Assembly: GCA_905233945.1 (NCBI GenBank)
Contig: CAJOFY010000014.1
Span: 1 to 39,654 of the forward strand
DNA: 39,654 nucleotides
Reading direction: 5' to 3'
From: an uncultured bacterium
GTDB lineage: Bacteria; UBP6; UBA1177
Part shown: piece after piece, positions 4,803-22,387 of the stretch
Layout: each line of letters starts with the position of its first letter
Numbering within the stretch: the first letter of the stretch is position 1
Position numbers and translations under genes: made by a program
The notes under the pieces: model-generated
Told to the model about the DNA's origin: nothing
Database searches by the model: none
Seen by the model: the letters and a program-made list of their open reading frames with translations, nothing else

Positions 4803-4876
4803 GGTTCAGTTCCGTTTCTGAAAAACTGCTTCTTTCCGCGATTTTTTATTCAATTCAAAAAAAGTTCCCTTAAAAA

Positions 4877-4904: not shown

Positions 4905-4943
4905 AGGCCGTTTTTTTGTTTCTGTTCTATTCGGGAGAGAAAA

Positions 4944-5744: not shown

Positions 5745-5751
5745 AGGAGAA

Positions 5752-7074
5752 ATGATAAGACAGGGCGTTATTCTTGCAAGCGGGCTAGGCAGCAGGCTCA
5801 ACAGCGAAGGCCGTAACGAGCCGAAACCCCTCATGCCTGTCGGCGGAATGGCTTTGATCGAGCGCGTCATCACGCTTATGCAGGCAGCCGGAATAGAAAA
5901 AATTGTCGTCGTTGTCGGTTACCGCGGCGACCAGATCAAGGAATATATCAGGAACAGCAATATCGGCGGCGTGGTTTTTGCCGACAATTCAGAATACAAC
6001 AAGAAAAACGGTATCTCGCTGCTCAGGGCAAAAGATCTGCTGGAAGACGAGCCGTTTCTTCTTTCAATGTCGGATCATATTTTTTCAAACGATTTTTTTG
6101 TCGATTTTCTGAAAAAAGCGGAAGAAAAACTCGAAAAATACGAGGTCGTCCTTTCGGTTGACAGGAATATCGAGGGCGTTTTCGATCTCGACGACGCGAC
6201 GAAGGTTGTTACCGAAAACGGTGAAATTACGACGATAGGCAAGGAACTGCCCACTTACGATGCTGTTGACACGGGGCTTTTCCTCTGCAAACCGGCAGTT
6301 TTTCCGAAGCTTCAGGAGATTTACGATACGAAAGGCGATGTCTCGATATCCGATGTCATGGGAAAGGAAGCAGAATCAGGTATGTTTGCGTGTGCCGAAA
6401 TGACGGGGCATCTCTGGCAGGATGTCGATACTCCGTCGATGAAAAACGAAGCCGAGGAGCGTCTGATCGACAATTATCTTAAAAGAGAACACTCAGCCAA
6501 TTTCTTTTCAAACAAATTTTTTATAAAAATCGCAAAGGAAACGGCTCTCGTACTTTTCAAAAAAGAGCATTTCGACTGGGATTTCGCCCATGTGGCTGTT
6601 TTCATAGTCTCGCTTGTGATCACGGCTGTTGCTCTTTTCGAGGCACTTCCCTGGCTTTCGATTCTGCCGCTTTTTATCTCAACATTTCTTTTTTATCTCG
6701 ATAAAATCAGAAGCAACGTAAGAACCGTGGCGGTAAAAAACGAAAACTTTCTTCTTTCGTGGAAATTCGGCTTCATACTTTCGGTTCTTCCGGCTGTTTT
6801 GCCGGCGTGTGGCACGGTTTTTGTCGGATTGCCGCTTGTCGCAGGGATGTTTGCCGTTGCTTTGGCAAAGCATTTAGGCTTTATGGATTTTCTCCTTTCC
6901 CAGCGTGATGAACTGCCAGACGTTCCGGAATCTTTGCTGAAAACATTTTTGTCGCCGTCGCTTTTCTGGATTGTTTATTCAGTCCTTGTTCTGGTTCTGC
7001 CTGAATGGATCATCGGATTCGTTCCGTTTCTATACTTTATTTTGTCGCCGTTTTTTTATGAAAAGAGGCGCTGA
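5752..7074 (+). CDS. Membrane-anchored sugar/inositol-phosphate nucleotidyltransferase-like protein
   Basis: Residues 1-245 form a GT-A-type nucleotidyltransferase: 'LASGLGSRL' at 8-16, the 'EPKPLMPVGG' lysine motif at 23-32, 'SMSDH' at 105-109 holding the metal-binding Asp, 'VDTGLFL' at 172-178 and 'WQDVDT' at 222-227. The 'KNGISLL...SMSDH...VDTGLF' set is what I associate with the inositol-1-phosphate cytidylyltransferase half of IPCT/DIPPS enzymes and with LicC-like cytidylyltransferases. Residues about 275-440 hold some five membrane segments but lack the DG-AR-G-D-D signature, so the usual phosphatidyltransferase half is absent here. That activity may come from the gene just upstream. 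Substrate and nucleotide are inferred. The stop overlaps exbD by one base. Confidence 0.8.
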   Translation: MIRQGVILASGLGSRLNSEGRNEPKPLMPVGGMALIERVITLMQAAGIEKIVVVVGYRGDQIKEYIRNSNIGGVVFADNSEYNKKNGISLLRAKDLLEDEPFLLSMSDHIFSNDFFVDFLKKAEEKLEKYEVVLSVDRNIEGVFDLDDATKVVTENGEITTIGKELPTYDAVDTGLFLCKPAVFPKLQEIYDTKGDVSISDVMGKEAESGMFACAEMTGHLWQDVDTPSMKNEAEERLIDNYLKREHSANFFSNKFFIKIAKETALVLFKKEHFDWDFAHVAVFIVSLVITAVALFEALPWLSILPLFISTFLFYLDKIRSNVRTVAVKNENFLLSWKFGFILSVLPAVLPACGTVFVGLPLVAGMFAVALAKHLGFMDFLLSQRDELPDVPESLLKTFLSPSLFWIVYSVLVLVLPEWIIGFVPFLYFILSPFFYEKRR

Positions 7075-7484
7075 TGGAGCTTAAAAAGCGGGCAGGCAGG
7101 GATTTTTCCATCGACATAAGTTCGCTTGTCGATGTTCTTTTCACGCTCCTCATATTCTTTTCGCTGACAAGCACTTTCGTGAAGGAATCGGGGCTCAAAG
7201 TCGATCTTCCCAAGGCGAGTTCTGATACTCCGCTGGTTTCTGCGGAGAAATTCGAGATAGCCATAAGTTCCGACGGAAGGATCGCTCTCGGCGGAACGGA
7301 AGTCGCTTCAATTGAGGAAGTAAAAGATTTTCTTGCAAAATTTGACATGGATATGCGTTTAAAATATGTTATCGTCATCAAGGCCGATGTCACGACTCCG
7401 CACGGCAGAGTGACGGAGGTTCTTGACGTGCTGAAATCCTTGAAATTTGAAAATATAGCAGTGGCGACGAGGTCAAAAGAATGA
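7074..7484 (+). CDS. exbD: ExbD/TolR-family biopolymer transport protein
   Basis: This small inner-membrane subunit belongs to a proton-driven ExbB-ExbD or TolQ-TolR type motor. It has a short basic N-terminus, one membrane span at about 16-38 ('DISSLVDVLFTLLIFFSL') with the conserved proton-path Asp at residue 20, and a periplasmic domain ending near residue 136. No ExbB/TolQ partner lies in the window; a TonB-family gene does, at 36341. It overlaps both neighbours by a few bases and sits between a membrane nucleotidyltransferase and an ftsB-like gene. Its job could be TonB energisation, Tol-type envelope constriction or motility. Confidence 0.9.
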   Translation: MELKKRAGRDFSIDISSLVDVLFTLLIFFSLTSTFVKESGLKVDLPKASSDTPLVSAEKFEIAISSDGRIALGGTEVASIEEVKDFLAKFDMDMRLKYVIVIKADVTTPHGRVTEVLDVLKSLKFENIAVATRSKE

Positions 7485-7759
7485 AAAAAAAGAAAATTTG
7501 GTTTGTTGTTGGTGCTTTGTTTATTTTCATTTCGGCTTTTTTTGTCTATGACATAGCCGTTTCTTACGGCGAATTCAGCCGTGACCGTGAAAATATCAGG
7601 GTGATAGAAGCCAGACAGCGTGCTATAAACCACGAGAGCGGCCGCATACAGCATGACATAGACCGTTTTTCAAAAGACCCGAGAGCCGCTGAAGAGCTTC
7701 TCAGAAGAAAATACAGAATGCTTCGTTCTGACCAATACAAGTATATTCCCGAAAAATGA
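7481..7759 (+). CDS. ftsB: FtsB/DivIC-family septum formation protein
   Basis: The 92-residue protein has a basic N-terminus, one membrane span (about 7-26), a predicted coiled coil (about 35-65) and the family-type ending 'DPRAAEELLRRKYRMLRSDQYKYIPE'. FtsB homologues bridge FtsL and FtsQ in the divisome. It overlaps exbD and the following cyclase gene by four bases each, so all three should be made together. The family call is good; the precise ortholog is less sure because these proteins are short and diverge fast. Confidence 0.8.
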   Translation: MKKKKIWFVVGALFIFISAFFVYDIAVSYGEFSRDRENIRVIEARQRAINHESGRIQHDIDRFSKDPRAAEELLRRKYRMLRSDQYKYIPEK

Positions 7760-9747
7760 CACTTTTATTAGAATACCGTTTTTTCTGGCACATCACGACG
7801 CTGTTGTTTTCGCTCCTTTCGCTTTATTTGAAAGACAGCGTTCCGTTTCTTGTAATTCTTTGGAGTATCTTTGTTCTCTTTGTTATCTATGTGCAGTTTG
7901 TTGAAAAAAAGAAAATTCCGTTTTATCTCTGCATTCTTCCTGTTTTTGTCGTTTCAGGCGGGACCTGTTCGAGTCCTGTTCTGCCGCTTGTCTTTCTTGC
8001 GCTTCCGTTGATTCTTCAGAAAAGCGACGATATTTCCTACGTTGTATTTGCCGTAATTTCCTTCATTCTGATAGTATGCAGCGGAAAAATCGACGATTAT
8101 TCCGTCTTTGCGGTTTATGTTATCTTTGTTCTGGCGGTCATCGGTGTATGGCTTTTTATGAGGAGATCATCACTGTTTGTTTTTTCTCCTCAGCCGGCGT
8201 CATCTGTAAAGGTGAAGTCAAAAGTGAGCCGTCCTCTTGTGGAAGATCCGTTCAGACCGCTGAAAAAATATATTGCCAGAACGAAAAATTTCGACGGCAA
8301 GCCGGTTTCGCTCCGCCTTGTAGAGCTTTTGGCCGGTGACAAAGCTAAAATATACGGTTCGGATACGGAATTTGCCAGAGTGGGTCTGCTTTTCAGTGTC
8401 GTCAAGGAGAAGACCGCCCTTGCGACGAAAACTCCTCTCGACGAGCGGGAGAACATTCCGATGATGCCTGAATACGATTTCAGGATATACTACCCGCTTT
8501 CCCTGGTCGATTCCGACAATTTCGAGCCCGAATATGTTCTTGTTGTCGATATTACGCTGAAGGAGAGGGCTGACAAGGATGAACTTATCGAGAAATTTTC
8601 CGAAATAAAGGAAGATGTCATCGAGCAGCTCAGACAGTCCGAGACTTTCAGCCATATTTCGGTCGAGAAGCAGAGAAATGCAACTCTTTACCGCGAAACT
8701 TCAAACATTGTTGATTCGTTTGAACACGACGGGCTTCTCAAGGCTGCCGCACTCGCTATTTTCAATCTGGCGCCTGAGGCAAGCGGAGTTTTTGTCGCAG
8801 AAAAACGCGAGGACGGTATTTTTTCAGGATATTCTTTTTCTGTAAAACCGGACTCAAAAAGGAAATGGCCGCTTGAAATGTCCGATATATGCGATGCTGT
8901 CAATGCGGACATAAATGACGCCCAGTCTGTTCACTCGATGATGGCGTGCGGAAAAATGGACGATTATTATGAAGCTGCCGATGTGAACAAGCGGAAAAAC
9001 GAGCCTTTGTTTCCTGCAGATTTTGACGAGCTCAACAAAAAGAGCTGCATTATGATCCGCTGTATGACATTTAAAGGCGAGGTGAAGGGGACAATATCGG
9101 TCCTTACCGACACCCAGAAGGATTTCGACGAGCTTAAAAAACATTCAGAATCGGTCAGAATGATTTCTAAAGTCGTAACTTCCGCGCTCAACAATATAGA
9201 AATGTTCCAGAAAATGGAGGAACTTTCCAATATCGACGGTCTTACCGGGCTTTACAACAGACGCTGCTTCAACAATATGATTGAGCGGAAAATAAGCGAG
9301 GTGAGCAGGGCGAAAACCCAGCTTTCGATGATCATGTTCGATATAGACCATTTCAAGAATGTCAACGATACTTACGGTCACAAGGCCGGCGACGATGTAA
9401 TTCGTTTTATCTCCGCAAAGATAAAAAAATCCATAAGAGAAGTCGATTTCGCAGCGCGTTACGGCGGAGAGGAGTTTGTAATCCTGCTCAACAACACCGT
9501 GATCGAAGACGCGGCAAAAATAGCTGAAAAGATAAGAAACATTGTTCGCGACACCACTGTCAACGCAGACGGAACGCCGCTCCGCGTGACTATTTCGTCC
9601 GGTGTGTCTTCCTATCCACAGCCTTCCATGAGTGCCGGAGATCTTGTAAAAAATGCAGATTCAGCGCTTTACTACTCGAAAGAACACGGGCGCGACCAGG
9701 TTACAGTTTACAGCGAAGATATGACAGGACCGGACAAAGAAGAGTGA
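7756..9747 (+). CDS. Membrane-bound diguanylate cyclase (GGDEF)
   Basis: This is a predicted c-di-GMP synthase of 663 residues. Residues 1-140 hold five or six hydrophobic segments. A linker and a GAF-like sensory stretch (about 310-480, by length and pattern only) follow. The GGDEF domain spans about 490-655, with 'GLTGLYNRR', 'FDIDHFKNVND', and the catalytic GGEEF at 570-574. An inhibitory I-site RxxD (R561-D564) stands at the usual distance before the active loop, so it is probably active and product-inhibited. There is no EAL domain. It ends a run of overlapping genes with exbD and ftsB, and converges on rng with an eight-base gap. Confidence 0.92.
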   Translation: MTLLLEYRFFWHITTLLFSLLSLYLKDSVPFLVILWSIFVLFVIYVQFVEKKKIPFYLCILPVFVVSGGTCSSPVLPLVFLALPLILQKSDDISYVVFAVISFILIVCSGKIDDYSVFAVYVIFVLAVIGVWLFMRRSSLFVFSPQPASSVKVKSKVSRPLVEDPFRPLKKYIARTKNFDGKPVSLRLVELLAGDKAKIYGSDTEFARVGLLFSVVKEKTALATKTPLDERENIPMMPEYDFRIYYPLSLVDSDNFEPEYVLVVDITLKERADKDELIEKFSEIKEDVIEQLRQSETFSHISVEKQRNATLYRETSNIVDSFEHDGLLKAAALAIFNLAPEASGVFVAEKREDGIFSGYSFSVKPDSKRKWPLEMSDICDAVNADINDAQSVHSMMACGKMDDYYEAADVNKRKNEPLFPADFDELNKKSCIMIRCMTFKGEVKGTISVLTDTQKDFDELKKHSESVRMISKVVTSALNNIEMFQKMEELSNIDGLTGLYNRRCFNNMIERKISEVSRAKTQLSMIMFDIDHFKNVNDTYGHKAGDDVIRFISAKIKKSIREVDFAARYGGEEFVILLNNTVIEDAAKIAEKIRNIVRDTTVNADGTPLRVTISSGVSSYPQPSMSAGDLVKNADSALYYSKEHGRDQVTVYSEDMTGPDKEE

Positions 9748-9755
9748 TTTCCGCT

Positions 9756-11285
9756 CTATTTTCCGTCCACCGTGAAGGATTCCCTGTGCATTGAATTGTC
9801 AGATTGCGTGTTTACCGATATTTTGAGTTCTTTTTTGAGCTTTTCCAGTTCGTCGGCATAAATCTGTTCGATTGCGAAGACTGTGTCGGGATGAGCTGTA
9901 ACTGTCAGCACTTTGCTGCCGTAAAGTTTCACGTGTTTTTTGATTTCGCGGAAAATCTGGAAAGTTACCGTGTCGCGCGAGCGGATTATGCCGTTCCCGC
10001 TGCAGTACGGGCACGGTTCGGTCAGTGACGAGATGTTGCTTTCAGTCGTTCTTTTGCGTGTGATCTGGATGAGTCCGAGGCGCGTGAAATAGAAAACAGT
10101 GCATTTCGCCGAGTCTTTTTCAAGCTCTTTTTCGAGTTTTGCTATGACTTTTTTCTTGTTTGCCTGATTGTGCATATCGATGAAGTCAACTACGATGATC
10201 CCGGCCAAATTCCTTAGTCTCAGGTGGTATGCGATTTCTTCTGCTGCCTCACAGTTCGTTTTGACGACAGTGCTTTCGAGGTCGCCTTTGCCGACGAATT
10301 TGCCGGTGTTGACGTCGATTACAGTCAGAGCCTCGGTCTGCTCAACAATCAGAAAACCGCCGCTTTTGAGCCATATTTTCTTTTTTATAAGTTTTGCGAC
10401 TTCAGGCTCGATTGAATAGTGTTCGAATATCGGATATGGGAGATCGTAGAATTTCACTTTGTCATCGGGATTTTCGCCGTAGAATGCGAAATAGTCGCGC
10501 ACAGTCTTTTCATCGTTTCTGTTGTCAACGACAATTTCGGAAAGCTCGTCCATGGCGGTATTCTGCACGAAATTGAGCATCGGATCGAGCGCCGGTTCGA
10601 TGAGTGCGGTTCCTTTGCCTTTCTGGAAAGTGTTCTGTATCGAAATCCACTTTTTTATCAGAAAAACGACTTCTTTTTCAATCGTTTTGATATCGGTTTC
10701 TGCCGCGAGAGTCCTTAAAATTATGCCGAATCCCTTTTTCTGGACTTTCTGGCCGAATTCCTTGAGCTCGTCGCGTTTTCCGCGGTCGTCAATCTTCCGG
10801 CTGATACCGATGTGGGTTATTGTCGGAAGGAGTACGCAGTATCTTCCGGCGAGCGATATGTGCGTCGTGAGCTTTGCCCCTTTTTGTCCGATGGGCTCTT
10901 TTACGACCTGGACGAGAATCCGTTTTCCCTCTTTTGCATATTCGGTTATGTCTGCCGGTCTGCGGGTTTCGTTCTTTTGTTCCGGCGCCGTTTCATCGTG
11001 TTCGGCAGGTTCTTCGTCATCGCTCTCGAGATTTTTCTGATACTCCTCGTAAGTTATGTCGAGCCTGAGATCCGTGGCGTGGATAAATCCGGTTCTCGTG
11101 CCTCCGAATTCGACGAACGCCGACTGCATCCCCGGAAGGACACGGCGGATTACGCCGGAATATATGTTGGAGAGACAGCTTCCCTCGTCGGAGTGTATGA
11201 CATGGAGCTCGACAAGTTTCCTGTCTTCAAGGATGGCTATTCTTTTTTCGCCGTAAGTGTTGTTTACGATTATCTGTCTGTTCAT
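9756..11285 (-). CDS. rng: Ribonuclease E/G family endoribonuclease, RNase G type
   Basis: A single-strand-specific endoribonuclease for rRNA and mRNA processing. The N-terminal S1 RNA-binding domain covers about residues 35-135, with an acidic insert around 85-110. The catalytic domain carries the two metal-binding aspartates D324 ('DVNTG') and D367 ('VVDFIDM'), 43 residues apart as in E. coli RNase E. A zinc-link sequence 'CPYCSGNG' lies near residue 430. At 509 residues it matches RNase G and lacks the long degradosome tail of RNase E. The upstream phosphodiesterase gene ends five bases before its start. Confidence 0.93.
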   Translation of the reverse strand: MNRQIIVNNTYGEKRIAILEDRKLVELHVIHSDEGSCLSNIYSGVIRRVLPGMQSAFVEFGGTRTGFIHATDLRLDITYEEYQKNLESDDEEPAEHDETAPEQKNETRRPADITEYAKEGKRILVQVVKEPIGQKGAKLTTHISLAGRYCVLLPTITHIGISRKIDDRGKRDELKEFGQKVQKKGFGIILRTLAAETDIKTIEKEVVFLIKKWISIQNTFQKGKGTALIEPALDPMLNFVQNTAMDELSEIVVDNRNDEKTVRDYFAFYGENPDDKVKFYDLPYPIFEHYSIEPEVAKLIKKKIWLKSGGFLIVEQTEALTVIDVNTGKFVGKGDLESTVVKTNCEAAEEIAYHLRLRNLAGIIVVDFIDMHNQANKKKVIAKLEKELEKDSAKCTVFYFTRLGLIQITRKRTTESNISSLTEPCPYCSGNGIIRSRDTVTFQIFREIKKHVKLYGSKVLTVTAHPDTVFAIEQIYADELEKLKKELKISVNTQSDNSMHRESFTVDGK

Positions 11286-11290
11286 GTTTT

Positions 11291-12061
11291 TTAAGATGCT
11301 GTTATAGGACTTTTCTGTTTCATGGGAATGATTTTCATCGGGCTTTTCATGCTTTTTATGTCTGCGATGATCTCGTCTTCCAGATTAGGTTTCAGATGGA
11401 ATGTGCGGATGGTGCAGCTGCGTTTTATTTTGTTGAGTTCGCCGTCCAGTTGAGACGGGGTCAGGTGTTTTGACACTGTCGCCAGTTTTTCGAGCCTGTT
11501 GGGGAAAGAAGTCTCCCAGCATATTGTTTTTACTGCATGGTCGTCGTTTACGTGGTCGACAAAATTATCACATATGCCAGTGTCGCCGGAGTATGCGATT
11601 GCTTCCCCGTTTTTCCGCAGAATGAAGCCGAGGGACTCAACGACATGGTTCACTTCGACAGGAAGGTATTCGATGCCGTCGATGGAAAAAGTCTCGTCGA
11701 ATTTTATCGGCTTGAACTTTATCGTCGGATTCTTTTTGGTAGGAAGTTTTGTAAAATCAGGCCAGACAAGATCGTTGAAAATATTGTCCATTATCTGCGA
11801 CATTATATTTTCCGTTGTATAGACTGTGAACGAATGATTTCCGAGCGAAAGCATGAAATCGGCGAAAATAGGGAGATTCTTGATATGGTCGAAGTGGCAG
11901 TGGGTGATAATGATGTTTTTTATCGCAAGAAGCTGTGTTTTGTCGAGAGATGACATTATTGAACCGGTGTCAATGACAGTTGAGGGAGTAACAAGCATCG
12001 ATATGCATTTTTTATTTTCAAGATCGCTGCCGTAGCAGCCGAGCGGAACTATGGAAAGCAT
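11291..12061 (-). CDS. Metallo-beta-lactamase-fold phosphodiesterase, class II cAMP-PDE-like
   Basis: A hydrolase of the metallo-beta-lactamase fold with the metal-binding 'HCHFDH' at residues 54-59, a later 'YSGDTG' aspartate segment, and a C-terminal 'FHLKP' histidine region. The 'ITHCHFDHIKNLP' context and length (256 residues) resemble class II cyclic-nucleotide phosphodiesterases (PDE1/CpdP) more than RNase Z or glyoxalase II, but the true substrate is not readable from the sequence. It has an AGGATG ribosome site and leads directly into rng. The upstream nfu gene is 59 bases away, so the three may form one transcript. Confidence 0.75.
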   Translation of the reverse strand: MLSIVPLGCYGSDLENKKCISMLVTPSTVIDTGSIMSSLDKTQLLAIKNIIITHCHFDHIKNLPIFADFMLSLGNHSFTVYTTENIMSQIMDNIFNDLVWPDFTKLPTKKNPTIKFKPIKFDETFSIDGIEYLPVEVNHVVESLGFILRKNGEAIAYSGDTGICDNFVDHVNDDHAVKTICWETSFPNRLEKLATVSKHLTPSQLDGELNKIKRSCTIRTFHLKPNLEDEIIADIKSMKSPMKIIPMKQKSPITAS

Positions 12062-12120
12062 TTCATCCTCCGAACAGAGAAGCTTTTTAAACTTGTCGCA
12101 GTGGGCGTTGTTGAAGATTA

Positions 12121-12357
12121 TTAGACGTTTACTACTTCTTTTACTTCCGGAACGAGGCTTTTGAGGTGCTGTTCAATAAACATTTTGAGAGTCATCTGAC
12201 TCATGGGGCAGCCTGCACAGTGACCCTGAAGAGCGACTTTTACTATGCCGTCATCGGTGATTTCAATAAGTTCGATATCGCCGCCGTCTCTCTGGAGCGC
12301 GGGACGTACTTCTTCAAGAACCTCTTTTACTCTTTCTTTCCAATCGTTTGCAGCCAT
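12121..12357 (-). CDS. nfu: NifU-type C-terminal domain Fe-S scaffold protein
   Basis: A stand-alone Nfu domain of 78 residues that holds and transfers Fe-S clusters. The cluster-binding CxxC is C47-C50 in 'GHCAGCPMSQMTL', preceded by 'VRPALQRDGGDIEL', the usual family N-terminus. An in-frame extension upstream exists, but the ATG at 12357 is preceded by AAGGAG at a good distance, and the extension has no family similarity. It is divergent from smpB with a promoter region between them. Anaerobic enzymes such as the glycyl-radical activase would need such clusters, though no specific client is shown. Confidence 0.9.
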   Translation of the reverse strand: MAANDWKERVKEVLEEVRPALQRDGGDIELIEITDDGIVKVALQGHCAGCPMSQMTLKMFIEQHLKSLVPEVKEVVNV

Positions 12358-12397
12358 TTTTTTCTCCTTAAAACCAGTAAAAAAACAAAAACGGGCA

Positions 12398-12425
12398 ATT
12401 ATAGAGGTAAAAAAGCTCAAGTCAA
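12398..12425 (-). promoter_or_regulatory. Promoter of nfu
   Basis: Read on the minus strand: TTGACT (12425-12420), a 16-base spacer, then a perfect TATAAT (12403-12398). Transcription would start near 12391, leaving a leader of about 34 bases before the nfu ATG. Its -35 overlaps the left arm of the inverted repeat at 12423-12439. Confidence 0.65.
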
Positions 12426-12439
12426 GAGAGAGACTCTTG
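12423..12439. promoter_or_regulatory. Inverted repeat between divergent nfu and smpB promoters, candidate operator
   Basis: CAAGAG (12423-12428), five bases, then CTCTTG (12434-12439). The left arm overlaps the nfu -35 box and the right arm overlaps the smpB -35 box. A dimeric repressor bound here could cover both promoters. No known regulator consensus matches well; it does not look like a classic Fur or IscR site. It could also be chance. Confidence 0.4.
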
Positions 12440-12464
12440 CCTTTTTCAGGTTTTTCCCTAAAAT
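12437..12464 (+). promoter_or_regulatory. Promoter of the smpB operon
   Basis: TTGCCT (12437-12442), a 16-base spacer, then TAAAAT (12459-12464). The start point would be near 12471, about 21 bases before the smpB ATG. It has the same layout as the candidate promoter of the DUF1566 lipoprotein gene. Confidence 0.55.
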
Positions 12465-12491
12465 AATGCGTTTTTGATTTTTGGTGTTGAA

Positions 12492-12947
12492 ATGGACAGA
12501 ATAAAATCGGTCGCAAAAAATAAAAAGGCGTTCAGGGCCTATGAAATCCTTGATAAACTTGAAGCGGGAATCGTTCTTCAGGGAACGGAGATTAAATCGA
12601 TCCGCGACGGCAATATCTCCTTCCGTGACAGTTTCATCGACATCATAAACGGCGAAATGTGGCTCGTCGGTTTCTACATCGCGCCGTACACTGCCGGAAA
12701 CATCTGGAACCACGAGGCCGACAGGCGCCGGAAACTGCTTCTAAACAAAAGGGAAATCAGAAAATGGGACGCCAAAGTGCGCGAGAAAGGCTTTACTGTC
12801 GTGCCGATAGAGATTTACTTCAAAAACGGCAGGGCGAAGATGGAAATCGGCCTTGCGCGGGGAAAGACTTCGTTCGACAGAAAGGACGATCTCAAAGAGA
12901 AAGACATTAAGAAAGACAGCGAAAGATTTACCGAGAAATACAGATGA
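12492..12947 (+). CDS. smpB: SsrA-binding protein SmpB
   Basis: It binds tmRNA and brings it to stalled ribosomes for trans-translation. The start at 12492 gives the family-like N-terminus 'MDRIKSVAKNKKAFRAYEI'; an ATG 18 bases earlier only adds six non-conserved residues. Core motifs are 'GIVLQGTEIKSIRDGNISFRDSF', 'YIAPYTAGN', 'RRRKLLLNKREI' and 'GLARGKTSFDRKDDLKEKD', with the basic C-terminal tail that reads the empty mRNA channel. It overlaps yraN by four bases. The tmRNA gene itself is not in the window. Confidence 0.95.
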   Translation: MDRIKSVAKNKKAFRAYEILDKLEAGIVLQGTEIKSIRDGNISFRDSFIDIINGEMWLVGFYIAPYTAGNIWNHEADRRRKLLLNKREIRKWDAKVREKGFTVVPIEIYFKNGRAKMEIGLARGKTSFDRKDDLKEKDIKKDSERFTEKYR

Positions 12948-13324
12948 ACACTCGTGAAACAGGCTCCGAGGCCGAATCGTTCGCAGCTGCATGGCTGGTT
13001 GAACAAGGCTGGGAAATCCTTGACAGAAACTTCTGCATGAAAGGCGGAGAACTCGATATCATCGCTAAAAAAGGCGATATTCTCGCTTTCGTTGAGGTGA
13101 GAAGCTGGGACCGAGCATTTTGGGACGGCGGCACTCCGCTTGAGACGATACACCCTGCAAAGATAAAACACATAATAAAAACAGCATTTTACTATATGCA
13201 GAGCAAAAAAATCCACATTCAGGATTTCAACATCCGTTTCGATGCGGCGGGGCTTATTAAAAAGAGCGACGGCGGTTTCGATATCGACTACATCGAAGGC
13301 GCTTTCGATGCGACGGGGTATTAG
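12944..13324 (+). CDS. yraN: YraN/UPF0102-family nuclease-fold protein
   Basis: A 126-residue protein with the restriction-endonuclease-like UPF0102 fold. The sequence shows 'GSEAESFAAAWLVEQGWEILDRNF', then 'GGELDIIAKKGDILAFVEVRSW', where the E-D-ExR pattern replaces the classic E-D-ExK, and an 'H..KIKHIIKTAFYYM' helix. The cellular role of this family is poorly defined. It sits between smpB and rsmI; its stop is one base before the rsmI start. Confidence 0.88.
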   Translation: MNTRETGSEAESFAAAWLVEQGWEILDRNFCMKGGELDIIAKKGDILAFVEVRSWDRAFWDGGTPLETIHPAKIKHIIKTAFYYMQSKKIHIQDFNIRFDAAGLIKKSDGGFDIDYIEGAFDATGY

Positions 13325-13325
13325 C

Positions 13326-14120
13326 ATGGCTGGAACTCTTTTTGTAACGGCGACTCCGATCGGAAACATGGGCGACATTTCGTCGCGGGCCGTTTCGGTG
13401 CTTGAAAGCTGCGATCTGGTCCTTGCCGAGGACAGCCGCGTTTCGGGAAACCTTCTGAGCAGGCTCGGAATAAAAAAACCGGTTTTTTCATACCACAAAT
13501 TCACCGAAAAAAAGTATCTGGAACAGCATATAGAAGAGCTCAAAAGCGGAAAAAACATCGTTTTAGTCAGCGACGCCGGAACTCCTGCGGTGAGCGACCC
13601 GGGAAAATTCCTTGTCCGGGCGGCTCTTGACGGGAACATTCCCGTTGTGCCGGTTCCGGGCGCGAGTGCCGCGATTTCTGCTTTTTCGTGCTGCGGTTCT
13701 CTGGAAAACTCATTTGTTTTCGCCGGATTTCTCCCGTCAAAAGGGGCGGAAAGGCTTGCGGAATGTGAAAAATTCCTCTCTTTCGGGCTTCCTGTCGTTT
13801 TTTACGAAGCTCCGACAAGAATAAAGGAACTACTTGAAATGATTAAAGAAAAGTGCTCGAGAATCGTCGTCGGGCGCGAGCTTACGAAGCAGTTCGAGGA
13901 GATTTTTGTCTACACCGGCGGCGAAATTAAGGAGAAAGGAGAATTTACAGTTGTCGCCGAGCCTTTGAAAAAAGAGGAAAAAACGGCGGAAATCGATAAA
14001 GATTTTATTGATTTGGTTGCAAAATCGGGAATTTCGGCTAAAACTGCCTGTGAAATTGTTTCCAGGGTTTACCCGGAATTGAAAAAAAACGATTTGAAAA
14101 AGTTTTTTATGAATAAGTAA
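13326..14120 (+). CDS. rsmI: 16S rRNA 2'-O-ribose C1402 methyltransferase
   Basis: A tetrapyrrole-methylase-fold enzyme that uses SAM to methylate the ribose of C1402 in 16S rRNA. The start at 13326 gives 'MAGTLFVTATPIGNMGDIS', the standard family opening; a longer in-frame ATG at 13242 would lie inside yraN. Further motifs are 'LAEDSRVSGNLLSRLGI', 'LVSDAGTPAVSDPG', 'PVPGASA', 'FAGFLPSK', and 'FYEAPTRI'. The length of 264 residues is slightly short for the family, in the C-terminal region. Confidence 0.95.
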   Translation: MAGTLFVTATPIGNMGDISSRAVSVLESCDLVLAEDSRVSGNLLSRLGIKKPVFSYHKFTEKKYLEQHIEELKSGKNIVLVSDAGTPAVSDPGKFLVRAALDGNIPVVPVPGASAAISAFSCCGSLENSFVFAGFLPSKGAERLAECEKFLSFGLPVVFYEAPTRIKELLEMIKEKCSRIVVGRELTKQFEEIFVYTGGEIKEKGEFTVVAEPLKKEEKTAEIDKDFIDLVAKSGISAKTACEIVSRVYPELKKNDLKKFFMNK

Positions 14121-14145
14121 CTTTTTGATATTATTGGAGATTGTT

Positions 14146-15189
14146 TTGGAAGTCGTTCGCAGATTCAGAAATCATTACCTTCTTTACTGCTATTTGCTTT
14201 TTCTCTGCATTATCGGTTCGTGCAACCTGAAAAATTCACATCAGGATCCGGAAGAAAGGGAAGGCGTCGAGGATATCGACGAGGATTTTGATGAAAACAA
14301 TGATGGAAATAATGATGAATTTGCCGATTTTGATGCGGCAGATAACGGAAACGATGCTGTTATTGACGAAAAAAACGATGTCGAATACGAAGATGAAGAA
14401 TCTTTGAGCGATAACGACATTTGTGACGGTGATTATTCGGCAACGGAAGATTTCGATCAGGATTTTCCCGATATGACGGGAACTTGGGCTAATCTCACGA
14501 TTTTCAAAGGCTCGGCAAAGGTTCCTCTTTTGGGTTCCACTCTTCCTGCCTGGGCGATAATGGTTTCAAAAGTTGACATATATTCGCAGGAAGAAGGTAC
14601 TTTGAAAGCGCACACGGAAATGTGCCGCCTGAAAGCAGGAACGGCAACCGATCTGGTTTATCCGTATTTGCCGGACAGTTATGCTGAAAGCCTCGGAAAT
14701 GTGGATAAAACATTTTATCTTTCGTACGGTGAAAACGGTGGAATCAGATTTCATCAGGACAAGTTGTGGGAAGTGCGCTCATGCACGCTTGAAGATCCTG
14801 AAAACGATCCTCTTCCGACCGACATAAACGACGAAAGGGTTTTTGATGCCGACAATTCAGGAATGAACGGACTTTATATGGGAATGGTCGGAAAAGCGAA
14901 CGGCAGGGCCGAAATCGTGCAGAAAGTAAGTACTATCCTTGACGGAGAGCTTGACGAAAACGGTGAAGTTTACGGTATTACGACATGGTTCGAAGCCCAG
15001 AGCGTTCTTTGGACAGATACTTTCCTGCTTGAAAACGGTGCTCCGACTTCTCCTGTCGGAGCCGATCCTAGCGAAAGTGTTTTTATTTTCAAGAGAATAG
15101 ATTCTTCGTGGGACTGCACGGCGGTAAAGGAAAACAGTGCCGCGCTTTTCCCGGAACAGGCTGCACTTTATCCGAATGAATTCAAATAG
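14146..15189 (+). CDS. Acidic-linker lipoprotein, function unknown
   Basis: I chose the TTG at 14146 because a TTGGAGA ribosome site lies about six bases upstream; no ATG fits. The product then has a hydrophobic signal with lipobox 'IGSC' (Cys26). Residues 30-115 are extremely rich in Asp, Glu and Asn and must be unstructured. A folded domain of roughly 220 residues follows, beginning 'DMTGTWANLTIFKGSAKVPLLG'; it contains a few cysteines and resembles no family I can name. It sits 25 bases after rsmI and nine before the epimerase, so it is likely cotranscribed. Confidence 0.8.
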   Translation: MEVVRRFRNHYLLYCYLLFLCIIGSCNLKNSHQDPEEREGVEDIDEDFDENNDGNNDEFADFDAADNGNDAVIDEKNDVEYEDEESLSDNDICDGDYSATEDFDQDFPDMTGTWANLTIFKGSAKVPLLGSTLPAWAIMVSKVDIYSQEEGTLKAHTEMCRLKAGTATDLVYPYLPDSYAESLGNVDKTFYLSYGENGGIRFHQDKLWEVRSCTLEDPENDPLPTDINDERVFDADNSGMNGLYMGMVGKANGRAEIVQKVSTILDGELDENGEVYGITTWFEAQSVLWTDTFLLENGAPTSPVGADPSESVFIFKRIDSSWDCTAVKENSAALFPEQAALYPNEFK

Positions 15190-15198
15190 GAGGAAAAA

Positions 15199-16236
15199 AT
15201 GAGAGTTCTTATCACAGGCGGAGCGGGATTTTTCGCGCTTCATATGACAAAAAAATGTGTTGAAATGGGTTGTGACGTCACTCTTCTCGACATTGCCGAA
15301 TACCATGCCGAGGATTACGACAAATCGGTCAAACTGGTAAACGGTGACGTCCGCGACGAAAAGAAGATGGACGAGCTTATTTCGCAGACCGACTGGGTCA
15401 TCCATGCCGCTGCGGCGCTTCCTCTTGCGACGAGAGAAGAGATTTTCTCGACAAATGTCGACGGCAGCAGAAACGTCCTTTCTCTCTGCTACAAACACAA
15501 AGTCAAAAGAGTCGCTGTCATTTCTTCGACCGCTGTCTACGGTGTTCCGGACCATCATCCGCTTTTTGAAACTGACAAGCTCGAAGGTGTCGGCAACTAC
15601 GGTGAAAGCAAGGTGCAGCTTGAAGGAATCTGCAACGAATACCGCGAAAAAGGGCTCTACATTTCGACAATAAGACCGAAAACCTTCATCGGAACATACC
15701 GCCTCGGCGTTTTCCAGATTCTTTACAACTGGGTCGAGGAAGGACACAAGATCCCGCTCATCGGAAACGGAAAGAACAGATACCAGCTTCTTGAAGTCGA
15801 CGACCTCTGCGACGCGGTTTATCTCGCACTTTCGCACGAAGGTGACGATGCCAACGACATTTTCAACATCGGCGCAGTCAGCACGCTTACCGAAAACGAG
15901 TATGTCGGCGCACTCTGCGAATACGCGAAAAGCGGTTCAAAAGTTATGCACACTCCGGTATGGCTTGTAATTCCGGCACTCACGATTTTTGAAAAACTTC
16001 ACCTTTCGCCGCTTTACAAGTGGGTTTACGGCACGGCGCACACCGACAGTTTCGTCTCTGTCGACAAGGCAAGAAAAGTTCTCGGCTGGGAGCCGAAATA
16101 CGACGAGTCGCAGGCTCTGATCAGAAGCTACCAGTGGTATATCGACAACAAGGATTCGATTGCGAAAGGAACGGGAACGACCCACAGGATCGCATGGGCG
16201 CAGGGTATCCTCGCACTTTTCAAAAAATTCCTTTAA
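15199..16236 (+). CDS. NAD-dependent epimerase/dehydratase (extended SDR)
   Basis: A Rossmann-fold sugar- or sterol-type oxidoreductase of 345 residues. The nucleotide-binding loop is 'TGGAGFFALH', where the third glycine of TGxxGxxG is replaced by Ala. Then come 'NGDVRD' near 50, 'HAAAALP' near 70, 'SSTAVYG', and the catalytic Y134-x3-K138 in 'YGESK'. The C-terminal part ('HTPVWLVIPALTIFEKLHLSPLY') is more like 3-beta-HSD-type or lipid-linked SDRs than UDP-galactose epimerases. The substrate is not clear. It has a strong AGGAGG ribosome site and is followed 12 bases later by tsaD. Confidence 0.87.
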   Translation: MRVLITGGAGFFALHMTKKCVEMGCDVTLLDIAEYHAEDYDKSVKLVNGDVRDEKKMDELISQTDWVIHAAAALPLATREEIFSTNVDGSRNVLSLCYKHKVKRVAVISSTAVYGVPDHHPLFETDKLEGVGNYGESKVQLEGICNEYREKGLYISTIRPKTFIGTYRLGVFQILYNWVEEGHKIPLIGNGKNRYQLLEVDDLCDAVYLALSHEGDDANDIFNIGAVSTLTENEYVGALCEYAKSGSKVMHTPVWLVIPALTIFEKLHLSPLYKWVYGTAHTDSFVSVDKARKVLGWEPKYDESQALIRSYQWYIDNKDSIAKGTGTTHRIAWAQGILALFKKFL

Positions 16237-17376: not shown

Positions 17377-19830
17377 CTACCTGACACAGCGGACAAGAAT
17401 GTTCGAGGTGTCATTCGCATTACCAATCTGAGCATTGTCATAATTCACGTACCAAAACCGGGAGTAACTTGTATTTGAGGCTGTATGATATACTCTCTCC
17501 AATGTCGAAGACCAGATTTGGTGGTAATATGCTCCATCCAAATTGAATTTACTGTAAATGCCTGTTTTGTCTTCAGTGCATCCACACGAACCGTTATCGT
17601 CATACAAAGAATTGTAAAGATCGTCACCGAAACAATCAATGGACGAGCAAGCGTTTGTTATCGGGCAACTTCCTCCGGAAGCTGTTTTATTGCAGTTTCT
17701 GATGGTTGTTCTAAGTTCGTTCAGCGTTGGAAGTCTCCAGTTGGAATATCCTCCGACAGTCAGATTGGCACAAAAATCGACAGCTTTTGAATGAACTTTA
17801 ATGTCAGGAAAATACGGAATCCACATAAGCCCTGTTTCAATATCTTTGCATACGCCTGCATTTTCGATGTAGCTTCCGCAGTCTATTTTCCTGCACATTG
17901 ATTCTACATTGTCCCATGCGTATCCGTTTTTGCACTTGAAAACACATTTTTCGGTGCTTGCGGTTTCATTATAAACACCTTCAGATGAAGGCAGCCATTC
18001 ACCTGTTGTTGAATCTTTCGTCTGCGTGATTTGGGAAACTGTGTTCCACTCTGCATTCGATGGAAGATGTGTGCAACTGGTACTTCTTACAGTAGATCCG
18101 CAGCCTGAACCGTTCCATTCATAGTTCTTTTTGCATTTGAAACGGCATTCTGTCGTGCTTGCCTCTTCGTTGTAAACACCTTCGTTCGAAGGCGACCATG
18201 TTCCGGTTTCGTCACTTCTTGTCTGTGTGATTTGGGAAACTGTGTTCCACTCTGCGCTTGCCGGAAGACCTTCGCATGGCACTGTTTTTGTTTTAGATGC
18301 ACATCTTGTGCCATTCCACCAGAATCCGTCTTTACATTTAAAATGACAGTATTCCGTACTTGGATTTGTATCGTAGACTCCGTTGTTTTGAGGCAGCCAT
18401 GTATCGTTACTCCAAAGCGTCTGCGTAATTTCGCCGCTACTGTTCCATTCCGCATTTGCAGGAAGTCCTTCACATTTTGCCTGTCTTGTTTTCTGCAAAC
18501 ATTTTTCTGTCGCCGAATCCCATCTATAATTCGAATAACACTGGAAGCAGCATTTATAAGGATTTTTATTTTCACAATATTCATATTTTGTATTTGCAGG
18601 GATCCATTGCCCGCTATCCACATCCCAAGTCTGTGTAATCGTATCATTCAGAAGAGGATTGCCGACTGCGTTTTCAGGAAGATCAGAACACATGATTTCC
18701 TTTGTCGCCGGAACACACTCGAAGTTGCCGTTAAGCTCATAATGTTCAGGACATTTGCCGCTTCCAAGACAGCGGATATTTCTTGTTCCGGTGTGGTTCG
18801 CACTTATTGCTGCCATGTGAATATCTGAAGAAAAAGTCATGTAATAATACATTATGCTGTTTTCCTGAGCCTGTGTTGATGACCACAGACTGAAATCATT
18901 GCCTTCTCCCTTTTTCGTGCCGAAAATACTGTATTCAATGCCTTCTTCAGGATCGCATCCGTTGCAGTCGTCAAGGTTCGGTTTGCAGTATGTGTTATAG
19001 TCAAAATATTCCACGCTGACAGGACATGTTCCGCCGAATTTAGTCTTGTCACAGTTTCTGACAATCTTGCGAAGTTCATCAATAGTCGGTGTTCTCCAGG
19101 AAAGATTGTCTGTTTTCAACTCTTCTTCGCAGTATGTAACGATATTTTCTTGTCCTAATTTTTCAGGAGACTGTGCCGACCAGATATAGCCTGTTTCGTA
19201 GTCTTTGCAGGTTTTGTCTGCATTTTCGGCATTGCACTTCGGGATGAAAACCGCGCATTTTGCACCGTCCCACTCGTATTTGTCTTTGCATTTGAAACGG
19301 CATTCCGTCGTGCTTGCCTCTTCGTTGTAAACACCGATGGTTGAAGGTATCCATCTTGACCAGTTCCACTGCTGTGTGATTTCACCAACGCTATTCCAAA
19401 CCGCATTTTCGGGTAATTCTTCACATGCAGCCTGTTGAGTGTTACCTACGCAGTCACCATTATTCCAAGTGTAGTTTTCCCGACATTCGCACTCGTAAGT
19501 TTCCCCTTTTTCAGTACATTTTCCTGTCGCAGCAGATATAAACCAGCACGGATTGGGATCACACGGAGTTGTTACGACTTCCTCATCCGGCATTGAATCC
19601 GTTGTATCACTGTCATCTGGTGTGGTGTCCGGATTATCAGGATTGTCAGGCTCAGTGTCACTTGGTTCTGAATCGTCTGACGGATCGTTGTCATCAGCAG
19701 TATCATTGTCCGTCACGGTTTCGCCTGAGTCAGGTTCATCACCTTGATTTACGCTTTTTGAGCTGCTGCCGCAAGCAGAAAAGAAAACCATTACACAAAA
19801 CAATGCAAAAACAAGACCAAAACTCTTCAT
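17377..19830 (-). CDS. Large Cys-rich lipoprotein with two DUF1566 domains and five internal repeats
   Basis: The ATG at 19830 has a GAGG site upstream and yields a lipoprotein signal with lipobox 'FSAC' (Cys20). Of its 817 residues, about 21-88 form an Asp/Ser/Pro/Thr-rich linker, followed by an EGF-like Cys-rich stretch (about 90-130). Then comes one copy of a roughly 60-65-residue repeat of the type C-x-x-LP-x-NA-x-WN ... ITQ ... W-x-P ... GVYN ... C-x-FKC ... Y-x-W ... C, a DUF1566 domain ('WRTPTIDELRKIVRNC' to 'RNIRCLG'), four more repeat copies, and a second DUF1566 domain at the C-terminus ('WRLPTLNELRTTIRNC' to 'RCVR'). DUF1566 is common in secreted and surface proteins. The design suggests a disulphide-stabilised surface protein; a binding role is inference. 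Confidence 0.9.
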   Translation of the reverse strand: MKSFGLVFALFCVMVFFSACGSSSKSVNQGDEPDSGETVTDNDTADDNDPSDDSEPSDTEPDNPDNPDTTPDDSDTTDSMPDEEVVTTPCDPNPCWFISAATGKCTEKGETYECECRENYTWNNGDCVGNTQQAACEELPENAVWNSVGEITQQWNWSRWIPSTIGVYNEEASTTECRFKCKDKYEWDGAKCAVFIPKCNAENADKTCKDYETGYIWSAQSPEKLGQENIVTYCEEELKTDNLSWRTPTIDELRKIVRNCDKTKFGGTCPVSVEYFDYNTYCKPNLDDCNGCDPEEGIEYSIFGTKKGEGNDFSLWSSTQAQENSIMYYYMTFSSDIHMAAISANHTGTRNIRCLGSGKCPEHYELNGNFECVPATKEIMCSDLPENAVGNPLLNDTITQTWDVDSGQWIPANTKYEYCENKNPYKCCFQCYSNYRWDSATEKCLQKTRQAKCEGLPANAEWNSSGEITQTLWSNDTWLPQNNGVYDTNPSTEYCHFKCKDGFWWNGTRCASKTKTVPCEGLPASAEWNTVSQITQTRSDETGTWSPSNEGVYNEEASTTECRFKCKKNYEWNGSGCGSTVRSTSCTHLPSNAEWNTVSQITQTKDSTTGEWLPSSEGVYNETASTEKCVFKCKNGYAWDNVESMCRKIDCGSYIENAGVCKDIETGLMWIPYFPDIKVHSKAVDFCANLTVGGYSNWRLPTLNELRTTIRNCNKTASGGSCPITNACSSIDCFGDDLYNSLYDDNGSCGCTEDKTGIYSKFNLDGAYYHQIWSSTLERVYHTASNTSYSRFWYVNYDNAQIGNANDTSNILVRCVR
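17893..18482 (-). repeat. Three tandem copies of the LPxNAxWN-FKC repeat within the DUF1566 lipoprotein
   Basis: Coding repeats of about 195 bases lie head to tail, at roughly 18482-18300, 18287-18100 and 18080-17893. Shared landmarks are a starting Cys, 'LP.(N/S)AEWN', 'ITQT', a Trp-x-Pro, 'GVY(N/D)', 'C.FKCK', an aromatic-Trp pair and a closing Cys. Two further, more diverged copies lie at about 18695-18500 and 19435-19255. Boundaries are approximate. Confidence 0.8.
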
Positions 19831-19876
19831 TCTAAACCTCACTGAAACAACCGGGTTTTTAAACAAAAAACGCAGT

Positions 19877-19948: not shown

Positions 19949-22387
19949 TTACTTCAGATTCTTTTTGAAGCTGATGATGTCGGAAAGACCGGAATAGGTT
20001 TTATATGCGTTGTTTTCGCAGACAACGACTGTCGGGACGCTTCTGATTCCGAATTTTCTCGCAAGATCCAAATGATCTGCTGCGTCAAGAACCTGAAGAT
20101 AAGGAGTTCCTTCCATCTCTTCCTTTGCTTTTGGGCAGTTGGGGCAGGTTTTCTGGGTGAAAAGGTAAACCTGTTTGTCGCTGCACGGTGCTGAGGACAT
20201 TGAAGCTGCCGGCTGAACGAAAGATTCGGGAGCAACTGTTGAGTTTAGGAAAGTTCTTTCGCAGGTTTTGCCGCCTTCGCTACCGCCGTTGCCGATATTG
20301 ACTTCCTTGGCGATGTCGGAAGAAATCTGGTATTCGGTTCTCTTCTCGAATTCCTGTTTTTTGCCGTCGTTCCAGTGTTCGATCGGTCTGTAGTAACCGG
20401 TGATTCTGCTGTAAACTTCAACTTTGCCGCCGCATTTCGGGCAGGAGTCATGCTCGCCTGCGCTGTATCCGCATTTCGGGCAGATCGTGTATGTCGGGGA
20501 AATCGTGAAGTAGGGGAGTTTGAAGGTGTAAGCGATCTTTTTGACAAGAGCCGCAGCCGACTGCCAGGAAGGAAGTTTTTCGCCGAGGAAAGTGTGGAAA
20601 ACCGTTCCGCCCGTGAACTTGGTCTGAAGCTTGTCCTGGATTTCGAGAGCTTCGAAAGGATCGGTCGTGTAGTTTACCGGAAGGTGACAGCTGTTGGTGT
20701 AGAAAGGTTTCTCGTCTTTGCCAGTAGCAGCTGTGATGATGTCGTCCCATCTTTCTCTATCCATCTTCGCAAGACGGTAAGCGGTCGATTCAGCCGGGGT
20801 CGCTTCAAGGTTGTAAAGGTCTCCTGTTGTTTCCTGGTAGTTTTTAAGTTTTTCGCGCATGAAATCAAGAACATCCTGCGAGAACTTGAGTCCTTTGTGG
20901 CCTGCGATGTTCTCTTTGATCCAGCATGCGTTGAGGCACATTTCGTTCATGCCGACAAGACCTATCGTCGAGAAGTGCGAATTGAAGTTGCCGAGGTATC
21001 TTTTGGTGTAGGGGTAGAAGTTCTCGTTGAGGAGTTTCGTGCAGACTTTTCTTTTGATTTCAAGGCTTCTCTTAGCGATATCCATGAGTCTTTCGAGTTT
21101 TGCGTAGAACTCTTCCTCATTTTTCGAGTTGTATGCGATTCTCGGAAGGTTGATCGTTACAACACCGATGCTGCCTGTCTTCTCGCCGCTTCCGAAGAGA
21201 CCGCCTGTTTTCTTGCGGAGTTCTCTTTTATCAAGCTGGAGTCTGCAGCACATGCTTCTGACGTCGCTCGGTTTCATGTCGCTGTTGATGAAATTCTGGA
21301 AATAAGGGGTACCGTATTTTGCAGTCATTTCGAAAAGAAGCGGAACGTTCTCGCCTTCCCAGTTGAAATCCTTCGTGATGTTGTAGGTCGGGATCGGATA
21401 CTGGAAACCGCGTCCTACCGCGTCGCCTTCAAGCATGATCTCGATGAACGCCTTGTTGATCATGTCCATTTCCTTCTGGCATTCGCCGTAGGTGAAATCC
21501 ATTTCTTTGCCGCCGACAATCGCAGGAATGTTCTTGAGGTCGTCCGGGCATACCCAGTCAAGCGTGATGTTGCTGAACGGAGACTGAGTTCCCCATCTCG
21601 ACGGAGTGTTTACGCCGAAAACGAAAGCCTGGATAGCCTGTTTTACACCTTTATAATCAAGCTGATCGACGCGTGCGAACGGAGCGAGATAGGTGTCGAA
21701 GCTAGAGAAAGCCTGTGCGCCAGCCCATTCGTTCTGCATGATGCCGAGGAAGTTGACCATCTGGTTTGCGATTGTGTAAAGGTGGTTTGCAGGAGCGGAA
21801 GTAAGTTTACCGGGAACGCCGCCAAGACCTTCCTGAATGAGCTGTTTAAGCGACCAGCCTGCGCAGTAAGCGGTGAGCATCGAAAGATCGTGAAGGTGGA
21901 AGTCGCCGTTTTTGTGGCACTGCGCGATTTCGTTGTCGTAAATTTCGCTCAGCCAGTAGTTTGCAGTGATTTTTCCACTGTTGTGAAGGATAAGTCCACC
22001 GATGCTGTAGGTAACGGTCGAATTTTCCTTGACTCTCCAGTCTTCGTTGTTGACGTAGCTGTTGATTGTTTCTTTGTAGTCAAGGATGGTCGATTTCATC
22101 TCACGGAGTTTTTCACGCTGCTTTCTGTAAAGGATGTAAGCCTTTGCAACTGTGGTGTATCCCGCTTTTTCAAGCGTGTTCTCTACACTGTCCTGAACAT
22201 CTTCGATCTCGATTACGTTGTCGTGGATCTTGCCCTGAAAGTCCGCCGTTACTCTGAGCGAGAGAATGTCAAGAATATCGTCGTTAAAAAGCATATCAGC
22301 GGCGACGAATGCCTTTTTGATAGCTTCCTTGATTTTGTTAAGGTCGAAATCCGCTAAAGCGTTGTTTCTTTTTCTGATTTTGAACAT
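19949..22387 (-). CDS. nrdD: Anaerobic ribonucleoside-triphosphate reductase with C-terminal redoxin domain
   Basis: A class III glycyl-radical enzyme that makes dNTPs from NTPs without oxygen. Residues 1-95 are an ATP-cone ('FKIRKRNNALADFDLNKIKEAI'). The barrel includes 'FHLHDLSMLTAYCAGW' and the Cys pair in 'MCCRLQLDKRELRKKTGG'. A zinc ribbon (two CxxC, 'CPKCGYSAGEHDSCPKCGG') is followed by the radical site 'RITGYY' with Gly664. Instead of stopping soon after, as usual, the protein continues through a linker into a glutaredoxin/thioredoxin-like domain (738-812) with active site CPNC at 748-751 and a cis-Pro at 785 in 'SVPT'. The fused domain is probably the electron donor, replacing formate; this is inferred. 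No nrdG activase is in the window. Tandem NrdR-box-like sites lie upstream. Confidence 0.95.
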   Translation of the reverse strand: MFKIRKRNNALADFDLNKIKEAIKKAFVAADMLFNDDILDILSLRVTADFQGKIHDNVIEIEDVQDSVENTLEKAGYTTVAKAYILYRKQREKLREMKSTILDYKETINSYVNNEDWRVKENSTVTYSIGGLILHNSGKITANYWLSEIYDNEIAQCHKNGDFHLHDLSMLTAYCAGWSLKQLIQEGLGGVPGKLTSAPANHLYTIANQMVNFLGIMQNEWAGAQAFSSFDTYLAPFARVDQLDYKGVKQAIQAFVFGVNTPSRWGTQSPFSNITLDWVCPDDLKNIPAIVGGKEMDFTYGECQKEMDMINKAFIEIMLEGDAVGRGFQYPIPTYNITKDFNWEGENVPLLFEMTAKYGTPYFQNFINSDMKPSDVRSMCCRLQLDKRELRKKTGGLFGSGEKTGSIGVVTINLPRIAYNSKNEEEFYAKLERLMDIAKRSLEIKRKVCTKLLNENFYPYTKRYLGNFNSHFSTIGLVGMNEMCLNACWIKENIAGHKGLKFSQDVLDFMREKLKNYQETTGDLYNLEATPAESTAYRLAKMDRERWDDIITAATGKDEKPFYTNSCHLPVNYTTDPFEALEIQDKLQTKFTGGTVFHTFLGEKLPSWQSAAALVKKIAYTFKLPYFTISPTYTICPKCGYSAGEHDSCPKCGGKVEVYSRITGYYRPIEHWNDGKKQEFEKRTEYQISSDIAKEVNIGNGGSEGGKTCERTFLNSTVAPESFVQPAASMSSAPCSDKQVYLFTQKTCPNCPKAKEEMEGTPYLQVLDAADHLDLARKFGIRSVPTVVVCENNAYKTYSGLSDIISFKKNLK

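Follow-up and report, generated by a model that had tools for sequence, protein, structure and literature searches.

Several lectin-fold lipoproteins are diversified by diversity-generating retroelements (DGRs), among them LdtA of Legionella and TvpA of Treponema, and lipoproteins carrying the Fib_succ_major domain (TIGR02145) have many paralogues within a single gut genome. Titles on LdtA and TvpA are among the works cited by PMC8144416, and passages of PMC4159848 describe DUF1566 as a common DGR target domain and Fib_succ_major as a domain related to it. According to PMC11162425, Lcl of Legionella is a surface adhesin, a trimer with a collagen-like stalk and an N-terminal amphipathic helix, and it ends in a C-type-lectin-like domain that recognises glycosaminoglycans.

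The protein studied here is encoded on contig CAJOFY010000014.1, of which positions 1 to 39,654 constitute the whole stretch of DNA analysed (hereafter, the window), and it resembles each of these systems in part. Like Lcl, it ends in an Lcl_C domain that scores over Pfam's cut-off, which makes a role as a surface adhesin plausible; unlike Lcl, it has a lipid anchor, cysteine-rich modules and two Lcl_C domains, and it has no collagen repeats (no collagen family among its Pfam matches up to an E-value of 10, and no Gly-X-Y run). As with the DGR-diversified lipoproteins, its lipoprotein relatives in sister species have a DGR cassette and an Lcl_C tail at the C-terminus that is hypermutated, but the window gene itself is without DGR marks, its module is not in the libraries searched, and the heads come from an expanded paralogous family. 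The Fib_succ_major lipoproteins share with it a DUF1566-related domain and large paralogous expansions; however, TIGR02145 was matched by only 1 of 33 modules (best E-value 0.001) and did not match the window protein at E-values up to 10. Finally, EGF-like domains (PF00008 and relatives) have a counterpart in one six-cysteine knot in the chain, and the C-terminal part of the module is like the end of such a knot, whereas the module has four cysteines and a conserved LPxNAxWN...ITQT..W.P half, and falls under all Pfam cut-offs.

Among open-licence PubMed Central articles (CC0, CC BY, CC BY-SA), we found no paper on the module or on the expansion. What is new is the module family, its restriction to a single phylum in what was searched, and how large the repertoire is; Lcl_C heads and DGR-mutated lectin-fold proteins were already known.

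A modular lipoprotein with two Lcl_C domains

The original prediction, made from the DNA letters, placed a lipid anchor, an acidic spacer, an EGF-like knot, five modules and two DUF1566 domains in a single chain. Open reading frame, profile and Pfam analyses bear out this architecture, which is laid out along the window gene as follows (module scores are from a profile excluding the copies).

17377..19830, minus strand: coding sequence of the module/Lcl_C lipoprotein, 817 aa, coordinates including the stop codon
19771..19830, minus strand: signal peptide with a lipobox-like FFSAC, read from the sequence; Cys20 putatively lipidated
19573..19770, minus strand: acidic low-complexity spacer, read from the sequence
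19450..19563, minus strand: EGF-like six-cysteine knot, residues 90-127, from the cysteine pattern and a family alignment
19255..19425, minus strand: module copy 1, residues 136-192, 83.7 bits
18760..19236, minus strand: internal Lcl_C (DUF1566) domain, residues 199-357, from Pfam, between copies 1 and 2
18499..18690, minus strand: module copy 2, residues 381-444, divergent, with two extra cysteines, 37.7 bits
18301..18474, minus strand: module copy 3, residues 453-510, 65.7 bits
18100..18276, minus strand: module copy 4, residues 519-577, 77.1 bits; DNA homology with the sister gene L061b stops inside it, at 18118
17893..18075, minus strand: module copy 5, residues 586-646, 69.8 bits; absent from L061b
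17380..17880, minus strand: terminal Lcl_C (DUF1566) head, residues 651-817, from Pfam and the sister comparison

We place the start at the ATG at 19830 (MKSFGLVFALFCVMVFFSAC), with a GAGG read from the sequence at 19837-19840, 6 bases upstream; the mechanically called frame is longer and extends back to an ATG at 19929. Judged by eye, the lipobox FFSAC follows a hydrophobic signal, and many paralogues start with a similar ...SC. Pfam's Lcl_C model (PF07603, DUF1566) matches two stretches of the protein at 68.9 bits against a gathering cut-off of 34.9. The six cysteines of the knot stand in EGF-like order and are all invariant in 28 aligned knots of the family; taken alone, the knot scores under the Pfam EGF gathering score (18.1 versus 21.5 bits).

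A cysteine module under all curated cut-offs

Each module is roughly 60 residues long and carries four cysteines, with the consensus CxxLPxNAxWN...ITQT..W.PS..GxYNE..S..ECRFKC..xYxWxGxxC. The cysteines are conserved, and the unit may be closed by disulphides. As had been proposed with the original prediction, a profile of the module was searched and the structure of a single module predicted. The profile comprised 25 rows, with the five copies of the window protein and three rows from the L061 locus left out, and it recovered all five copies at the scores listed above; the top score among 1000 shuffles of the window protein was 11.9 bits. The module is a real unit that has been multiplied. Copies 4 and 5, thought to be the closest pair, are indeed close (38 of 59 residues and 123 of 177 bases identical, with an identical DNA run of 18 nt), but they are tied with copies 1 and 4 (36 of 57 residues, 120 of 171 bases, run of 23 nt). 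Likeness between copies is a patchwork in which each close pair has its own long identical DNA run, and copy 2, the copy with the extra cysteines, is the outlier.

Whether searched within the whole protein or as single copies, the module stayed under every curated Pfam and NCBIfam cut-off, so that no significant match to an existing family emerged from these libraries, and a sequence search of the PDB with the module returned no match. The AlphaFold model of a single module, built from 14 sequences, has a pLDDT of 77.9 and found no matching fold: nothing in the PDB or among viral protein models was better than an E-value of 0.99, the single PDB match up to an E-value of 10 stood at 8.8, and no viral protein model fell under 0.001.

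The last 13 columns of the module align to the EGF-like knots of the family (hhalign probability 95%), and 6 of 33 module members reach EGF_MSP1_1 at E-values up to 1, the best being 3.3e-4 and under the cut-off; the module may thus be EGF-related and not wholly new. It is conceivable, although we doubt it, that the module is simply a divergent EGF domain with no claim to a separate family, a reading that would be compatible with an adhesin. The alignment is limited to those 13 columns, the cysteines number four versus six in EGF, the conserved 40-residue N-terminal part of the module has no counterpart, and the module model has no fold match. The suggestion that the module may be new stands as far as curated cut-offs are concerned, and is tempered by the EGF-like character of its C-terminal part.

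A large family within one small phylum

The source genome has a size of 2.65 Mb in 56 contigs and is 99.7% complete. A profile search gives 91 module matches in 37 of its open reading frames, and a home-made Lcl_C profile identifies 92 frames that together hold at least 182 of these domains. The census of open reading frames covered about 480 kb of the genome including the window, with some frames cut at the ends of the stretches. Both module and Lcl_C are present in 32 frames, modules only in 5 and Lcl_C only in 60; EGF-like knots number 78 and lie in 34 of the 97 family frames. Pfam's own Lcl_C model gives at least 152 matches in the genome. The description of a new surface module, drawn from one gene, was thus correct in that the module is real and incomplete in view of these genome-wide counts: the larger story is that of the lectin heads, not of the module alone.

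By profile search, the module is present in 23 of 28 genomes examined from the phylum: all 15 of the genus, all 4 from elsewhere in the family, 4 of 6 from elsewhere in the order and none of 3 outside the order. It was found in none of 33 genomes of other phyla, and no relative was confirmed in plasmid, phage and viral collections; look-alike modules may occur in other candidate phyla. Within the genomes and collections searched, the module is confined to one small phylum. Lcl_C, for its part, is present in all 28 genomes of the phylum, at no fewer than 47 to 112 matches per genome within the genus and 1 to 3 outside the order; 1 of 14 control genomes gave a match, which was under the cut-off.

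Conserved body and divergent head in a sister species

The only named relative found is L061, a tandem gene pair (L061a and L061b) at 3522-8238 in the yak-rumen isolate RGIG10212. The two genes differ in their heads, and their surroundings do not match those of the window gene; outside the gene, the window has no DNA match to the other genes of L061, so the gene is placed differently there. A comparison of copy number, which the original prediction had envisaged between strains, was made between species and gives five modules in the window gene, five in L061a and four in L061b, which is without the fifth.

From the EGF-like knot to module 4, the body of the window protein is 77-95% identical to L061b. 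More specifically, identical residues amount to 38 of 44 in the knot, 53 of 57 in module 1, 151 of 159 in the internal Lcl_C domain (42 of 42 in its final 42 residues), and 53 of 64, 46 of 58 and 41 of 53 in modules 2 to 4. In the terminal Lcl_C domain, by contrast, only 60 of 153 residues are identical (39%). At the DNA level, blastn aligns the window gene with L061b at 87% over 18118-19570, the alignment ending inside module 4. Furthermore, the head of L061b shares 35% identity with the window head but 42-46% with a number of other heads encoded in the source genome. Taken together, the contrast between head and body, the breakpoint in module 4 and the nearer paralogue heads form the trace expected of a head exchange located at a module. 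The signs of recombination that had been anticipated are present both in this end of DNA homology and in the patchwork identity among copies. A single gene pair carries the breakpoint, and for this pair an exchange at the module may be proposed from the sequences compared.

Across the two genomes, body and head could be separated in 71 of 92 Lcl_C frames on the source side and 40 of 55 on the sister side, which yielded nine reciprocal-best pairs. The head is less conserved than the body in seven and more conserved in two, so a genome-wide rule that heads always diverge faster does not hold cleanly. In-frame TAG codons occur in some matches from the sister genomes; the one inspected (G013:C6) marks where one tandem gene gives way to the next and is not a case of readthrough.

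DGRs in related genomes

RVT_1 matches occur in 15 of the 28 genomes of the phylum (22 rows at 21 places). Seventeen of these places were examined, leaving aside G017:C203, G020:C155, G025:C174 and G027:C235, and 11 have a DGR-type repeat pair with differences at the adenines of one copy. Over 13 template/target pairs, 222 of 568 A sites are changed versus 15 of 945 other sites, 9 of those 15 coming from one pair. Within the genus, DGRs are present in 7 of 15 genomes (G002, G003, G004, G005, G009, G012 and G014). The end of the DGR target is Lcl_C-like in ten loci, among them L165, whose target is truncated where the contig starts, and of another type in L167; modules were detected in the target at 2 of 11 loci, L156 and L157.

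These two loci are complete cassettes, each with a variable module lipoprotein, an Avd-sized open reading frame, a template and a reverse transcriptase. The targets are lipoproteins with 3 and 4 modules, respectively, and a terminal Lcl_C domain, and in each locus 21 of 22 differences between template repeat (TR) and variable region (VR) are at A. Translations of both reverse transcriptases contain YVDD and GLPIGNLTSQ, the latter of which we take to be a mark of DGR reverse transcriptases, and that of L156 scores 70.6 bits with RVT_1. Between VR and TR lies a 128-aa frame, a candidate Avd accessory protein, that matches NF033474 under the cut-off, at E-values of 0.0098 and 0.0041. The template encodes WSSSTKSDNTDNAWNVNFNNGNVNNNNKTNNNNVRCVR, which places its AAC codons in the lectin-like tail. 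The repeats end differently, the VR in ...CCGCATTTT and the TR in ...AACGCAAACATTTT: after the stop codon, targets read CCGCATTTT and then a hairpin, and templates read AACGCA without a hairpin, with folding energies of -8.7 kcal/mol on the VR side and -0.1 and -1.5 kcal/mol on the TR side. We take these distinct ends to be IMH and IMH*, with the hairpin after the VR only.

Two further features of related loci were observed. In the DGR target of L156 (1550-4108), the acidic spacer and the modules are separated by a VWA domain, which scores 25.7 bits against a cut-off of 23.8. L167 (G015:C86), from another genus of the family, has a DGR with TR at 2738-2842 and VR at 4926-5030; its target end is not Lcl_C and reads RGGSW...CRSANR, presumably resembling the formylglycine-generating-enzyme fold.

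DGR traces in the source genome

In the draft assembly of the source genome, neither a DGR reverse transcriptase nor a template was found: the one gene that matches RVT_1 encodes a reverse transcriptase of the UG26 defence type (510.8 bits), and no template-like DNA exceeds 75% identity. This RVT_1 gene stands amid Lcl_C genes and was considered as a DGR, but there is no convincing template/target pair within its 20-kb stretch, and the repeat pairs listed near it consist of coding or low-complexity sequence.

Nevertheless, an identical 32-base DGR-type 3' end is shared by three genes, each on a different contig.

C1:105098-107215: gene with 6 modules, DGR-type 3' end at G000:C1:105074-105105
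C10:75608-77965: gene with 2 modules, DGR-type 3' end at G000:C10:77958-77989
C16:1592-2101: gene with DGR-type 3' end at G000:C16:2094-2125

In addition, 7 of 59 tails in the source genome have C in at least 7 of the 9 slots that are AAC in the template, against controls of 0 of 59 at 60 codons upstream and 0 of 57 at 120; the register of the slots is fixed from the stop codon, so that tails of changed length are misaligned, and a few high scorers are without the AW...G motif. These ends and C-rich slots indicate that DGR action was recent, or that the cassette lies on unassembled DNA.

The window gene has neither mark. Its tail has C in 3 of 9 slots versus 4 of 9 in its own control, and the VR end motif is missing after its TAG, from which we conclude that it is a member of the family and not a present DGR target. 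That its head nevertheless diverged by adenine-directed mutagenic retrohoming is very improbable. DGRs do act on module/Lcl_C lipoproteins within the same genus, and the tail of the window gene shares a 26-residue register with the sister variable regions; however, the searches for a reverse transcriptase and for a TR, the codon footprint and the VR end motif all speak against it, and the divergence spans the whole head plus a module, well beyond the tail.

A candidate adhesin with a putatively exchangeable head

We consider it fairly probable that the window protein is a surface lipoprotein adhesin in which a stalk of modules bears a lectin head open to exchange, and that it is part of a large repertoire. 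The lipid anchor and the acidic tether would hold a rod composed of the EGF-like knot and the four-cysteine modules, and the rod would present the two Lcl_C domains at the cell surface. The C-type-lectin-like fold assigned to these domains is borrowed from the published Lcl structure; an AlphaFold prediction for a construct of three modules plus Lcl_C (3 sequences) left the Lcl_C half unmodelled, with pLDDT mostly below 50 from residue 197. The internal Lcl_C domain is the one kept between species, and the terminal one would be a variable head with a putative binding function. Modules may act as rigid spacers and may also supply the repeated DNA along which heads could be exchanged among paralogues. 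The repertoire numbers about a hundred genes, whose products probably differ in the rumen glycans or surfaces that they bind. In the sister species, DGRs hypermutate the heads of some members; in the source species they would have done so in the past, or would act from DNA missing from the assembly.

Two other accounts of the same observations have to be weighed, both of which we regard as unlikely. The head could have diverged rapidly because selection on it was relaxed or positive, with no exchange involved, as would suit the lower conservation of orthologous heads in seven of the nine pairs; such a process would hardly produce an abrupt drop from 77-95% to 39% that coincides with the gain or loss of one module and with a break in DNA homology within module 4, nor a head of L061b that is closer to those of other paralogues than to that of the window protein. 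The modules and Lcl_C domains could instead form a structural surface coat without specific ligands, with paralogy leading to antigenic or phage-receptor variation. The very high number of genes fits a coat, as does their turnover, which left nine reciprocal-best pairs at ≥50% between the 71 and 40 split proteins; but DGR hypermutation in the sister species is confined to the C-type-lectin-like tail, in passages of PMC8144416 and PMC4159848 the usual signature of binding-site diversification.

Building on the adhesin with an exchangeable head, we tentatively raise a further possibility, which we think less likely than the adhesin itself: a two-level repertoire in which whole heads are swapped along a clade-specific module track among about a hundred lipoproteins, and a few tips are then hypermutated by DGRs. 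If true, it would unite combinatorial joining with targeted mutation in a manner loosely comparable to antibody diversification. Lectin-fold lipoproteins and DGRs in any case meet in one small phylum, where a genome of 2.65 Mb holds at least 182 lectin-like domains. Should module-guided exchange of heads be real, this uncultured gut lineage would be one in which domain swapping and targeted hypermutation of one surface family could be tracked in population data.

Other observations at the UG26 locus and beside the window gene

The UG26 reverse transcriptase of the source genome (L063, G000:C21:1-20000; gene at 5660-6931) lies within a cluster of cassette-like genes at 1754-15297. Genes of this cluster have common N-termini and zinc ribbons, and end in Lcl_C or DUF6273 domains; the cluster may serve defence or sensing as an island that uses this lectin fold as well. 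An AgmX/PglI C-terminal domain is also found within the reverse transcriptase locus and gives a slight hint of kinship with myxobacteria. In the window, the neighbour of the lipoprotein gene (19949-22387, minus strand) is an anaerobic ribonucleotide reductase-like frame with a glutaredoxin-like C-terminal stretch (LFTQKTCPNCPKAKEEM) that, by eye, is apparently fused to it.
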